NCBI RefSeq assembly: GCF_018614875.1
Contig: NZ_JAGGNW010000011.1
Span: forward strand, 806,001-870,000
DNA from: Variovorax paradoxus
GTDB taxonomy: Bacteria; Pseudomonadota; Gammaproteobacteria; Burkholderiales; Burkholderiaceae_C
Length of the DNA stretch: 64,000 nucleotides
Reading direction: 5' to 3'
The translations under genes were made by a program, and so were the position numbers. Below the pieces are notes generated by a model. The model had not been told where the DNA came from and searched no databases. It saw only the letters and a program-made list of their open reading frames with translations. Shown here one piece after another: positions 32,792-36,523 of this stretch; position 1 is the first letter of the stretch, and every line of letters begins with the position of its first letter.

Positions 32792-34272
32792 GACTGCGCC
32801 TGCTGGCCACTGCCGCCGCCGCTCTGCTGCTGGCAGGCTGCGCGGCCGGCCCCGACAACAAGACGCCCGAGACGCCGCTGCCCGTGAGTTGGAAGCTCGA
32901 GGAACCCTGGCGCCAGGGCGCACCGAACGACAGCGCCGACAAGGGCCCGTGGTGGAAGCGCTTCAACGACGCACAGCTCGACGCGCTGCAGGACAAGGCA
33001 CTGGCCGGCAGCCCGACATTGGTCGTCGCCAACGCGCGGCTGGCCCAGGCGCGCGCCACGCTCGCGGCCAACTCGGCCAGCCAGTTTCCGCAGCTCGGGC
33101 TCGGCACCCGCGCCTCGCGCCTGAAGATTTCCGCCAACCGGCCGCTCACCAACTATGCGACCGCCAATTCATCGACGGTGCAGAACGACTTCATGCTGTC
33201 GCTCAACGCCAGCTACGAGCTCGACCTGGCGGGCCGCGTGCAGCGCACGGTCGAAGGCGCCGCGGCCTCCGCCGAGCAGTCGGCCGCCGACCTGGCGAAC
33301 ACGCGGCTGGTGCTCGCCGCCGACGTGGCGAACAACTACTTCAACCTGCGCTCGACCGACATCGAGCTCGACGTGCTCTCGCGCTCCATCGCCCTGCAGC
33401 GGCGCGCGCTCGAGCTGGTCACTGCGCGCCACGACCTGGGCGCCGTGTCGGGCCTCGACGTGGCGCAGCAGCAGGCGCTGCTCGACACCACGCTGACGCA
33501 GGTCGACGTGCTGAAGAAGCAGCGCGCGCAGTACGAGCATGCGCTGGCCACACTCACGGGCACGCCGGCGCCGAGCTTCGAGCTGCCGGCGGACCTGCGC
33601 GAGATCCGGCCACCCGCGGTGCCGCTGGGCGTGCCTTCGGAAATGCTTCAGCGACGGCCCGACGTCGCCTCGGCCGAGCGCGCAATGGCCGCGGCCAATG
33701 CGCAGATCGGCGTGGCTACCGCGGCCTTCTACCCCAGCTTCATCATCTCGCCGACCGTGGGCGTGGACAGCCGCATGATCGAGACGCTGTTCAATGGCCC
33801 GAGCCTGTTGTGGTCGGTGGGCGTGTCGGCCACGCAGGTGCTGTTCGACGGCGGCCGCGTGCGCGCGAACGTCGATTTTGCCAAGGCCGGCTACGACGCC
33901 ACGGTGGGCAACTACCGCCGCACGGTGCTGACCGCGATGCAGGAAGTGGAAGACGGCATCACCGGCCTCGCCGCGCTCGACCGCGCCACCACGCAGGCAC
34001 AGGCCGCCGTCGCGGCCGCGCGCCGCGTGCTCGACATGGCCACCAGCCGCTACGAAGGCGGCGCCTCGACCTACCTCGACGTGATCACCGCGCAGCAGTC
34101 GCTGCTCACGGTGGAGCGCCAGGCCGCGCAATTGCAGGGGCAGCGCCTGCTGACCTCGGTGTTCCTGGTGAAGGCGCTCGGCGGCGACTGGTGCGGAGCG
34201 GACACTTCCGGCGCGGCCGGCCCTAGAACAGGCTGCCCTGCCCCGCTGCGCCAGGTGGCCGGAACGCGCTGA
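32788..34272 (+). CDS. Outer-membrane efflux lipoprotein, NodT family
   Basis: A 494-residue TolC-like outer-membrane factor. The signal peptide ends in the lipobox LLAGC with lipidated Cys18. Typical segments are WWKRFNDAQLDALQDKAL, SYELDLAGRVQRTVEGA, LRSTDIELDVLSRSIALQRR and RPDVASAERAMAAANAQIGVA. It begins at a GTG overlapping the adaptor stop. The family usually ends near KALGGDW; here a 26-residue tail (CGADTSGAAGPRTGC onward) continues into the antisense end of the neighbouring radical SAM gene. Confidence 0.93.
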   Translation: MRLRLLATAAAALLLAGCAAGPDNKTPETPLPVSWKLEEPWRQGAPNDSADKGPWWKRFNDAQLDALQDKALAGSPTLVVANARLAQARATLAANSASQFPQLGLGTRASRLKISANRPLTNYATANSSTVQNDFMLSLNASYELDLAGRVQRTVEGAAASAEQSAADLANTRLVLAADVANNYFNLRSTDIELDVLSRSIALQRRALELVTARHDLGAVSGLDVAQQQALLDTTLTQVDVLKKQRAQYEHALATLTGTPAPSFELPADLREIRPPAVPLGVPSEMLQRRPDVASAERAMAAANAQIGVATAAFYPSFIISPTVGVDSRMIETLFNGPSLLWSVGVSATQVLFDGGRVRANVDFAKAGYDATVGNYRRTVLTAMQEVEDGITGLAALDRATTQAQAAVAAARRVLDMATSRYEGGASTYLDVITAQQSLLTVERQAAQLQGQRLLTSVFLVKALGGDWCGADTSGAAGPRTGCPAPLRQVAGTR

Positions 34273-35317
34273 GGTCCAGCGCAATGCGCTCGCGGTTGAA
34301 GCCGATGCGGTTCGCCGCCTTCTCGAAGCGCTGGCGGATCAGGTCGGCCCAGAGGCCGCTGCCCTTCATGCGCGTGGCGAAGTCGGCGTCGTAATCCTTG
34401 CCGCCGCGCATCTCGTGGATGCGCGCCATGATGCGGTCGGCGCGCTGCGGGTAGTGCAGCTCGAGCCACTCCTTGAAGAGCGGCGCCACCTCCCACGGCA
34501 GCCGGATCACCGTGTAGAAGGCGCTGCGCGCACCGGCATCCCAGGCGGCTTCGAGCACCTGCTCCATGTCTTCGTTGACGAAAGGAATCTGCGGCGCCAC
34601 GCTCACGCCCACCGGCACGCCCGCCTCGGCCAGCGTGCGGATGGTGCGCAGGCGCCGATGCGGCGCGGCGGCGCGCGGCTCGAGCTTGCGGGCCAGTTCG
34701 CCGTCGAGCGTGGTCACGGTGATGTACACCGCCGCCAGGTGCTCGGCAGCCATGGGCGCGATGAGGTCGAGGTCGCGCTCCACCGCGCTCGATTTGGTGA
34801 CCAGTGCAAACGGATGCCGCGTTTCCTTCAGCAGCTCGATCACCGACCGGGTGAGCCGCAGTTCGCGTTCGATGGGCTGGTAGCAGTCGGTGGCGGTGCC
34901 GATGGCGACGTGGCTGGGCCGGTAGCCCTTGCGGCCGAGTTCGGCGCGCAGCACCTCGACGATGTTGCGCTTGGCGATGAGCTTGGTTTCGAAGTCGAGC
35001 CCCGGCGAGAGATTGAGGTAGCTGTGCGTGGGCCGGGCAAAGCAGTAGATGCAGCCATGCTCGCAGCCGCGGTAGGGATTGAGCGAACGGTCGAACGAAA
35101 CATCGGGCGAGTCGTTTTCGTTGAGCACCGACTTCACGTCCTCGAAACGCACCTCGGTAGCGAGCGGCATCAGCTCTTCGGCCTCGGCCGCGCCTTCTTC
35201 CAGCGTGCCCCAGCCATCGTCGAAGGCATTGCGCTCGTCACGCGAAAAGCGGTGCGCCAGGCGCGTGGCCGCGCCGCGTCCCTTGATGGCGTGGATGGGA
35301 ATGTGAGCAGTCGGCAT
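34223..35317 (-). CDS. PA0069-type radical SAM protein (spore photoproduct lyase-like)
   Basis: A 364-residue radical SAM protein. The iron-sulfur motif is CEHGCIYC (CX3CX2C) in NPYRGCEHGCIYCFARPTH. Next are GTATDCYQPIERELRLTRSV and VTVTTLDGELARKLEPRA-like segments of the COG1533 (SplB-related) group. It probably uses SAM radical chemistry on nucleic acid, but no reaction is established. AAAGGA precedes the ATG, and a LexA box lies 21 bases upstream, indicating SOS control. The 3' end overlaps the efflux gene by 50 bases. Confidence 0.88.
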   Translation of the reverse strand: MPTAHIPIHAIKGRGAATRLAHRFSRDERNAFDDGWGTLEEGAAEAEELMPLATEVRFEDVKSVLNENDSPDVSFDRSLNPYRGCEHGCIYCFARPTHSYLNLSPGLDFETKLIAKRNIVEVLRAELGRKGYRPSHVAIGTATDCYQPIERELRLTRSVIELLKETRHPFALVTKSSAVERDLDLIAPMAAEHLAAVYITVTTLDGELARKLEPRAAAPHRRLRTIRTLAEAGVPVGVSVAPQIPFVNEDMEQVLEAAWDAGARSAFYTVIRLPWEVAPLFKEWLELHYPQRADRIMARIHEMRGGKDYDADFATRMKGSGLWADLIRQRFEKAANRIGFNRERIALDLSAFRPPGAAGQGSLF

Positions 35318-35337
35318 GGCAAATCCTTTCGCTGAAA

Positions 35338-35357
35338 TACTGGTTATTCATACAGTA
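35338..35357. promoter_or_regulatory. LexA (SOS) box
   Basis: TACTGGTTATTCATACAGTA fits the LexA consensus CTG-N10-CAG, with symmetric flanks (AATACTG and CAGTATT, seven-base arms, 35336-35359). It lies 21 bases upstream of the radical SAM start and 77 bases from the divergent GbsR-type gene. Confidence 0.85.
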
Positions 35358-35391
35358 TTCCAATCGCATCCATCCGGCAAACGATTTTTAA

Positions 35392-35414
35392 TTTCTCTCT
35401 TGACAGAAATTTCT
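35392..35414. promoter_or_regulatory. Operator 1, upstream of the GbsR-type gene
   Basis: TTTCTCT-CTTG-ACAGAAA (35392-35409) is followed by a third half-site, TTTCT, which creates AGAAATTTCT (35405-35414). It differs from the 18-bp site at 36064-36081 at two bases only. It covers the -35 box TTGACA of the gene's own promoter, as expected for autorepression. Confidence 0.6.
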
Positions 35415-35434: not shown

Positions 35435-36040
35435 ATGGAACTCACCGATATCCAACGCAAGTTCGTTCTCCATTGGGGTGAAATGGGCTCCATGTGGGGC
35501 GTCAACCGCACGGTCTCGCAGATCCACGCGCTGCTGTTCGCGCACGGCAAGCCCATGCATGCGGAAGAGCTCTCCGAGACGCTGGGCGTGGCCCGCTCCA
35601 ACGTGAGCAACAGCCTGAAGGAACTGCAGGCGTGGAACCTGGTGCGCGTCACGCACATCCTGGGCGACCGGCGCGACTATTTCGAAACCAGTGTCGACGT
35701 CTGGGAACTGTTCCGCACCGTGGTGCGCGAGCGCAAGGAGCGCGAGTTCGACCCCACCATCCGCGTGCTGCGCGAGATCGTCTCCAGCCCCGACTTCCAG
35801 AAGGAGCCCGCCGATGCGCAAGACCGCATCCGCTCCACCATGGACCTGATGAGCAAACTCGCCACCTGGGCCGACGAGATGCTGCGGCTCTCGCCCGGCA
35901 CGCTCGACAAGGTGCTGACGCTCGGCGCCAGCGTGCAGAAGTTCGTTCGCGGGGATGCGGCGCAGGCGGCAACTCCTGCTGCGGCCCCGAAGAAGGACGA
36001 CGACCCCGACGCCCACCATGCCAGCCTGCCGATGATCTGA
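35435..36040 (+). CDS. GbsR/MarR family transcriptional regulator
   Basis: A 201-residue winged-helix protein of the GbsR type. The DNA-binding region is WGVNRTVSQIHALLFAHGKP, then LSETLGVARSNVSNSLKELQ as recognition helix, and wing VTHILGDRRDYFETS. The C-terminal half is helical and dimerising. In other bacteria GbsR proteins control choline/glycine-betaine genes, but no such genes are here, so the effector is unknown. Near-identical palindromes before this gene and before the next one suggest it controls itself and the 36098-38615 genes. Confidence 0.9.
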   Translation: MELTDIQRKFVLHWGEMGSMWGVNRTVSQIHALLFAHGKPMHAEELSETLGVARSNVSNSLKELQAWNLVRVTHILGDRRDYFETSVDVWELFRTVVRERKEREFDPTIRVLREIVSSPDFQKEPADAQDRIRSTMDLMSKLATWADEMLRLSPGTLDKVLTLGASVQKFVRGDAAQAATPAAAPKKDDDPDAHHASLPMI

Positions 36041-36063: not shown

Positions 36064-36081
36064 TTTCTGTTTTGACAGAAA
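36064..36081. promoter_or_regulatory. Operator 2, upstream of the DCC protein gene
   Basis: TTTCTGT-TTTG-ACAGAAA is a perfect seven-base inverted repeat and the second copy of the site found before the regulator gene. It lies in the 57-base gap between the two genes. Confidence 0.6.
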
Positions 36082-36097
36082 CAACAAAAACGAACCG

Positions 36098-36523
36098 ATG
36101 CCCTTCGTCGCCACCTACCCCTTGACCGTCTACTTCGATGCCACCTGCATCCTCTGCTCAGCGGAAATGAACGCGATGAAGGCACGCGATGCCGCAGCCC
36201 GCCTGAACCTTGTCGACTGCTCGCCCGCCGGGTTCGATGCTGGCCCGGCTCCGCGCGAGGCGCTGATGACGTCCATCCACGCCGTCGACGCAGCGGGGCA
36301 AGTGTTCGTCGGCGTTCCCGCCATCCGGGCCTGCCGCGACGCCGTCGGGCTGCCGACCGGCAGCTTCCTGCTCGACCTGCCGCTGGTCGCGCCGCTGGCC
36401 GACCGCGCCTATGCAGTGCTTGCGCGCAACCGCTACCGGCTGCCGCGCTGGCTGGTGGCCCTGCTTGCCGGAAAGGCGGCGCGGTCGTCCCGCACCTGCG
36501 CCGGCGGCAATTGTCGGATCTGA
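36098..36523 (+). CDS. DCC family thiol-disulfide oxidoreductase-like protein (DUF393)
   Basis: A 141-residue DUF393 protein. It opens with the family's D-x-x-C-x-x-C motif (VYFDATCILCSAEM, residues 10-23), a thioredoxin-like active site. A second feature is the Cys-containing end RTCAGGNCRI. Redox activity is predicted from the motif only. It stands after the GbsR-type regulator and operator 2, and 15 bases ahead of the methyltransferase start region, suggesting one operon. No clear ribosome-binding site is seen. Confidence 0.8.
   Translation: MPFVATYPLTVYFDATCILCSAEMNAMKARDAAARLNLVDCSPAGFDAGPAPREALMTSIHAVDAAGQVFVGVPAIRACRDAVGLPTGSFLLDLPLVAPLADRAYAVLARNRYRLPRWLVALLAGKAARSSRTCAGGNCRI

Follow-up and report, generated by a model that had tools for sequence, protein, structure and literature searches.

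A LexA box before a PA0069-family radical SAM gene of Variovorax paradoxus, and the relation of its product to spore photoproduct lyase

The radical SAM gene and its upstream region

The window, by which we mean the whole stretch of 64,000 nucleotides from Variovorax paradoxus that was analysed, contains a radical SAM gene on the minus strand, a regulator gene that diverges from it and, in the intergenic region, a predicted LexA box. The features concerned are the following:

34223–35317, minus strand: PA0069-family radical SAM protein of 364 amino acids (NF033668, 463.6 bits; PF04055)
35324–35329, minus strand: candidate ribosome-binding site AAAGGA before the ATG at 35317, assigned by eye
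35338–35357, no strand assigned: LexA (SOS) box TACTGGTTATTCATACAGTA, predicted from the motif match and its conservation
35352–35380, minus strand: candidate promoter of the radical SAM gene, TTGCCG (35380–35375) and TACTGT (35357–35352) with a 17-base spacer, assigned by eye
35392–35409 and 36064–36081: two copies of the palindrome TTTCTGT-N4-ACAGAAA, with 1 and 0 mismatches, respectively
35435–36040, plus strand: MarR/GbsR-type regulator gene, divergent from the radical SAM gene

The score of the protein against NF033668 exceeds the curated cut-off of 360 with the full profile covered, which result places it in the PA0069 family; the model itself is of the type 'hypoth_equivalog' and states no function. 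The next best NCBIfam model, that of the Rv2578c family (NF038135), scored 213.6 bits, below its cut-off of 430. In Pfam, Radical_SAM was the sole row at E up to 0.001, and none of the four rows obtained at E up to 1 was PF00875 (DNA_photolyase), so that a light-driven DNA photolyase was rejected. The cluster cysteines are C85, C89 and C92 (CEHGCIYC), and the nearest named relative, from Variovorax beijingensis, is 96% identical. An AlphaFold (AF2) model (m1e85b8f833a1), built from a 45-sequence alignment, had a mean pLDDT of 78.8, with values under 50 at residues 1–51, 70–72 and 96–100, the last of these near the cluster loop. Distant relatives were also seen in 10 phage or archaeal virus records (KX607102, NC_007409, PP511521 and others), with 26–38% identity over about half the length and none covering 80% of the query, and matches occurred in 78 plasmid records, 27 of which covered at least 80% of it.

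Read on the minus strand, the box is TACTGTATGAATAACCAGTA, which departs from the beta/gamma LexA consensus TACTGTATNNATATACAGTA at 2 of the 18 specified bases; not one of 100 shuffles of the window matched that consensus as well. The site is thus a TACTGTATATATATACAGTA-like palindrome with a CTG-N10-CAG core, which form we take to be the consensus of the beta- and gammaproteobacterial LexA box, and the letters bear out the near-perfect LexA site described in the initial annotation, although the gap to the ATG at 35317, given there as 21 bases, is 20 by our count. Since the bare core, with 17 occurrences in the window against 26.7 expected by chance, is not significant on its own, it is the flanks, the place and the conservation that make the case for the box. 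The candidate promoter matches its consensus at 8 of 12 positions and falls under the threshold of the promoter scan, which for this region listed the divergent, regulator-side promoter only; if it is correctly placed, its −10-like hexamer TACTGT would sit within the LexA box, the usual layout for LexA-repressed genes. In an alignment of the upstream regions the box was conserved in six Variovorax-type rows, the adjoining bases varied, and the regulator-side palindrome formed a second conserved island. That palindrome, for which 0.02 occurrences would be expected at up to 2 mismatches, overlies with its first copy the −35 element of the MarR/GbsR-type gene and with its second precedes a DCC1-like gene ending at 36523, and is probably the operator of the MarR/GbsR-type regulator.

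We scanned the genome (5,589,483 bases, i.e. 5.59 Mb, in 36 contigs, 89.6% complete) for places within 3 mismatches of the LexA consensus and found three: the box at 35338–35357, a site 12 bases before the open reading frame of ImuA (NF033429, 211.4 bits), and a site among small open reading frames (L003; G000:C3:297515–297534), whose surroundings are mobile or phage-like in appearance. One lexA gene scored over the cut-off; its start carries two sites of the same kind as the box, CACTGGCTGAATATCCAGTA and ACCTGTATTTTTAACCAGTT, and recA has the site TACTGTTTAAGCATCCAGCC about 100 bases upstream, so that the CTGG...CCAG form of the window's box occurs in the genome's own SOS genes.

LexA motifs and neighbours of the orthologues

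Among 398 Pseudomonadota genomes surveyed, 171 carried the PA0069 family over the cut-off. We assembled 189 orthologue loci, comprising 80 named loci, 30 best-scoring ones and, from among the places listed, 79 others at about one per genus; the sampling was not random, and kinship between the loci enters the counts. The core CTG-N10-CAG was found between −200 and +30 in 59 of the 80 named loci, while the other spacings from 6 to 15 gave between 1 and 12 of the 80; and when at most 4 mismatches were allowed in addition to the core, 56 sites lay in the 24.0 kb before the gene versus a single one in the remaining 446.6 kb of those loci.

At all 189 loci we then looked for motifs in the 300 bases that precede the conserved KGRG codon. 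Outside the Lysobacterales and the alphaproteobacteria, 60 of 70 named loci (five of them titled just Proteobacteria, Pseudomonadota or Myxococcales) had the CTG-N10-CAG core, against a mean of 7.7 for other spacings, 5 within the gene and 6.2 in shuffled sequences; the core was likewise present in 7 of 9 further same-order loci, one of which comes from the genus itself, and in 17 of 24 same-class loci. GTTC-N7-GTTC preceded the gene in 4/4 named alphaproteobacterial loci, 30/30 best-scoring loci and 38/46 further loci of other classes, where other spacings gave means of 0.0, 0.2 and 0.8, respectively, and shuffled upstream sequences 0.6 of the 30 and 0.3 of the 46. Two further patterns were rare: TTAG-N6-TACTA in 2 of the 24 same-class loci and GAAC-N4-GTTC in 2 of the 70 named loci. 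In reading these counts we assume that CTG-N10-CAG belongs to the LexA of beta- and gammaproteobacteria and GTTC-N7-GTTC to that of alphaproteobacteria, the loci of other classes being, as it appears, mostly alphaproteobacterial. The named alphaproteobacterial group consists of three loci chosen by name or taxonomy (L075, L078, L080) and of L074, which was added after its motif had been seen. The last comes from a record titled Mycobacterium sp. KBS0706, in which the orthologue belongs to the proteobacterial family, is preceded by GTTC-N7-GTTC and is followed by rnhB; the assembly is possibly mislabelled or mixed.

Because some of the cores are there by chance, we also applied a stricter definition of a box-like site, namely the core with at most 6 mismatches in 18 positions, which retained 59/80 named, 7/9 same-order and 15/24 same-class loci and 0/30 and 0/46 of those from other classes. 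With box-like sites and the other three motifs taken together, 157 of the 189 orthologues have a motif that fits their own group; any of the four patterns is present in 161 and none in 28, four more loci having a core that does not resemble the box. The scan of orthologue promoters that had been proposed with the initial annotation therefore came out in its favour, and the predicted SOS (LexA) control of the radical SAM gene is strongly supported both by these promoters and by the sites at the genome's own lexA, recA and imuA.

The Lysobacterales are the exception, since 0/6 of their named loci had a box-like LexA site. At Lysobacterales-like orthologues we noted instead the following element:

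44–95 bases before the KGRG codon in L047, L052, L063, L066, L073, L128, L138, L139 and L143: CTGAGAC element

The pattern CTGAGAC-N8-11-YA..YT was present in 9 of 13 Lysobacterales-like loci versus 0 of the 176 others, and in shuffled sequences at a rate of 0.001 per locus; it had been derived after the fact from eight of these loci, seven of which fit, and the two that fit from outside the pattern building, L128 and L139, had counted as carriers of the N10 core, which core in their case is not box-like. The element may belong to a regulator or to a promoter, and a different regulator may act there in place of LexA. Before the orthologues of two metagenome-assembled genomes, of the Gallionellaceae (L058) and the Nitrosomonadales (L067), stands GAAC-N4-GTTC, the LexA motif type of Gram-positive bacteria; according to its title, one paper deals with a noncanonical betaproteobacterial LexA motif.

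Clustering of the neighbours at 110 loci (L004–L113) yielded no conserved operon partner that would point to DNA, the 14 largest clusters shown representing lineage-specific gene orders. Of the 30 loci inspected for it (L074 and L084–L112), 28 have rnhB, the gene for RNase HII, after the radical SAM gene and in the same orientation, at about 180 to 1,400 bases from the stop codon to the RNase HII motif, gaps too variable for us to claim an operon. For co-occurrence we scored presence over curated cut-offs in 185 genomes of the class: imuA was found in 32 of 60 carriers of the PA0069 family versus 28 of 125 non-carriers, and photolyase in 38 of 60 versus 54 of 125, which leaves 28 carriers lacking imuA and 22 lacking photolyase. 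Upon stratification for genome size the odds ratios went from 4.0 to 2.4 for imuA and from 2.3 to 2.2 for photolyase, modest associations whose permutation p values of 0.012 and 0.018, respectively, ignore kinship.

Comparison with spore photoproduct lyase

When the predicted model was compared with PDB chains, six rows of spore photoproduct lyase (SPL) came first (4FHC, 4FHE–4FHG, 4K9R and 4RH0; Z 19.1–19.7 over 259–267 residues, rmsd 3.1–3.7), followed by SuiB at Z 15.0 and then by PFL activase, lipoyl synthase, NifB and viperin-like enzymes; since the SPL rows lead the Z list, SPL would, on this model, be the closest known fold. The profiles gave a different picture, the protein scoring 15.2 bits with TIGR04070 (SPL) against a cut-off of 400 and 12.1 with PF20903 against 27. 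At E up to 1, PF20903 matched 34 of 77 members of the PA0069 family, with a best value of 6e-5, and a profile comparison with three SPL-like proteins aligned, at a probability of 77.7, a stretch of 97 columns located in the barrel's C-terminal half. Run against the PDB sequences up to an E of 10, the family profile picked out nine, the best being SkfB and NifB and none of them SPL, which absence we did not use as proof because the fold comparison ranks SPL first.

Catalysis by SPL involves a residue that could be followed through the family. In an alignment of an SPL-like protein with 4FHC, the entries C140A and C140S mark Cys140, which we take to be the catalytic hydrogen-donor cysteine, as the cysteine of EAACTSD; matching by hand T-D with S-D or T-D, we mapped its place to the second residue of the family motif G-x-x-T-D. 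Of the 189 sequences, 183 could be read at this place (6 were not read), and all of these have T, V, S, I, A, G or M there and none has Cys. Apart from the hand alignment, the family has no conserved fourth cysteine, since the only invariant ones are the three cluster ligands, in 77/77 members, and the next best column has Cys in 24/77. The protein does have one further cysteine off the Cys140-aligned place, C145 (TDCYQP), which we considered as a displaced hydrogen donor and rejected, since Cys occupies that position in 22 of 180 sequences read, as against 96 with Pro and 56 with Ala (9 of the 189 were not read). In the column of Tyr98, which comes after the third cluster cysteine, 130 of the 189 sequences have Phe and 59 have Tyr, the protein of the window having Phe93; the CxxxCxxC motif with a Tyr before the third Cys is kept in 77/77.

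The protein thus resembles SPL, as the initial annotation had it, in its predicted fold, its CxxxCxxC cluster and a stretch of 97 columns, and differs from it in lying far under both profile cut-offs, in having no Cys at the place of Cys140 and in having Phe for Tyr98; the resemblance holds for the fold and fails for the profiles and the catalytic cysteine. In the 398 Pseudomonadota genomes no protein exceeded the TIGR04070 cut-off, and three SPL-like proteins of 254–282 bits were found, all in one genus.

Published SOS control and the possible function

SOS control of genes of this kind has already been published, and the locus at 35338–35357 is one more case. The excerpted text of Sanchez-Alberola 2012 (PMC3323433) predicts that alpha- and betaproteobacteria have splB under LexA, names V. 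paradoxus in the species set of its Figure 5 (the species being named, which does not imply a mark for splB), and takes the presence of two divergent LexA motifs as evidence of genuine control; the argument from SOS control conserved across classes was therefore published in 2012. There, splB is presented as the first case of a photoreactivation enzyme belonging to the SOS response, with the statement that 'photoreactivation is under SOS regulation', and its LexA control is described as not observed in gammaproteobacteria, contrary to which the Pseudomonas loci of the present survey do carry the box. The kind of gene, the betaproteobacterial LexA motif and the two-motif argument are the same as here. 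With no SPL at the level of TIGR04070 in the 398 Pseudomonadota genomes, that betaproteobacterial splB is most likely the PA0069 family. What differs is that the gene was taken there for a photolyase, a reading to which our residue tests lend no support; with the profiles far under their cut-offs, no fourth conserved cysteine and mostly Phe for Tyr98, the published label is doubtful, and for the betaproteobacterial splB it would have the fold as its only basis.

Other reports concern radical SAM proteins that may belong to the PA0069 family or to sister families. According to the excerpts, SplB-like radical SAM proteins are placed in operons with SOS-linked domains (PMC3765255); SplB of COG1533 is called SOS-regulated in several species, with the P. 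aeruginosa SOS paper of Cirz 2006 among the sources cited and with Bacteroidetes added (PMC8565304); a radical SAM protein belongs to the Gram-positive core SOS regulon and another is found in Balneolaeota (PMC7739468); and the Streptomyces venezuelae radical SAM gene vnz_31145 is listed among the LexA targets from ChIP-seq and from RNA-seq with mitomycin, with values of 19.97 and 1.31 in the table of those experiments (PMC9380542). The radical SAM match in PMC5554334 is NirJ and was set aside as not being a PA0069-family gene, and PMC3388012 holds nothing on a radical SAM gene of this family. The excerpts of the SOS literature cited here yielded no biochemical or deletion test of an SOS radical SAM protein, and our literature search, which covered few subscription journals, found no paper treating PA0069 together with LexA and no radical SAM fitness data with cisplatin and DNA repair. 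PA0069 itself had been named in the initial annotation as a member of the Pseudomonas LexA regulon, which claim is favoured indirectly by the box in 5/5 named Pseudomonas/Stutzerimonas loci and by the citation of Cirz 2006 in PMC8565304, whereas in the literature, as far as excerpted, we did not find PA0069 named as a LexA target.

From these data we infer the following sequence of events. A LexA dimer would bind at 35338–35357 over the likely −10 element and hold the expression of the gene low; upon DNA damage, RecA filaments would promote the self-cleavage of LexA, the site would be vacated, and the radical SAM protein would be made together with the products of imuA, recA and lexA. Its [4Fe-4S] cluster, bound by C85, C89 and C92, would cleave S-adenosylmethionine to give a 5'-deoxyadenosyl radical, which might attack a damaged or crosslinked nucleotide by abstracting a hydrogen. 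Where SPL returns the hydrogen through a conserved cysteine, this enzyme would not, so that the lesion and the chemistry should differ from the reversal of the thymine dimer known as the spore photoproduct. An SOS-induced radical enzyme whose substrate is damaged nucleic acid and whose chemistry differs from that of SPL is the reading that we prefer, with a probability of roughly 0.6; the low confidence of the model at residues 1–51 and 96–100, on which model the fold match rests, we count against it. A repair role is plausible from the sequence data, and the fuller proposal, that the PA0069 family is a radical-based DNA repair enzyme with a chemistry unlike that of SPL, wide conservation, an SOS control kept over at least three different LexA motifs and a borrowed name, we advance tentatively, at somewhat below an even chance.

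The main rival is an SOS-induced radical SAM enzyme with no part in DNA repair, which would modify a tRNA, an rRNA, a protein or a nucleotide in the damage response. SOS regulons include non-repair genes too, such as those of cell division inhibitors, so that regulation alone does not show repair, and the target of the radical may be a tRNA, a protein or a small molecule. The best PDB sequence matches, SkfB and NifB, and the neighbours that follow SPL in the fold comparison would suit such an enzyme; SPL nevertheless stands about 4 Z units above those neighbours, and the recurrence of radical SAM genes among the SOS genes of several phyla whose LexA motifs differ, as far as the excerpted reports go, suggests a function near DNA damage, so that we judge a non-repair enzyme unlikely, if well worth keeping in mind.

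A working photoproduct lyase, induced by the SOS response to reverse UV thymine dimers as in spores, is the reading of PMC3323433 and could appeal to that published naming as splB, to the six best fold matches, to the cluster motif with its Tyr in 77/77 members and to the PF20903 matches in 34 of the 77. The scores of 15.2 bits against 400 and 12.1 against 27, the invariable absence of Cys from the Cys140-aligned place in the 183 sequences read, and the Phe in the Tyr98 column (130/189, and in the protein itself) all speak against that enzyme and render it improbable. The spore photoproduct, moreover, arises in dehydrated, SASP-bound DNA, a form of DNA that the bacteria concerned are not known to have.

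It is very improbable that the box serves the divergent MarR/GbsR-type regulator rather than the radical SAM gene: it does lie in the shared intergenic region, 77 bases before the regulator's ATG, but of the 189 loci, 79 of which span just about 0.8 kb upstream, 7 have a relative of the regulator gene next to the orthologue, the box stays with the radical SAM gene across loci, and the −35 of the regulator gene is covered by a palindrome of its own. A chance resemblance with no LexA binding, such as a core so common in the window and the two mismatches from the consensus might suggest, is scarcely credible in view of the shuffles, the concentration of sites before the gene and the preference for the N10 spacing.

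The preferred reading of an SOS-induced radical enzyme concerns a recurrent member of the textbook SOS response that for years has borne another enzyme's name without, as it seems, sharing that enzyme's key residue. If this protein does repair DNA by another radical reaction, a new repair chemistry would be present in many environmental bacteria; if it does not, the photolyase label in several SOS papers would need correction.
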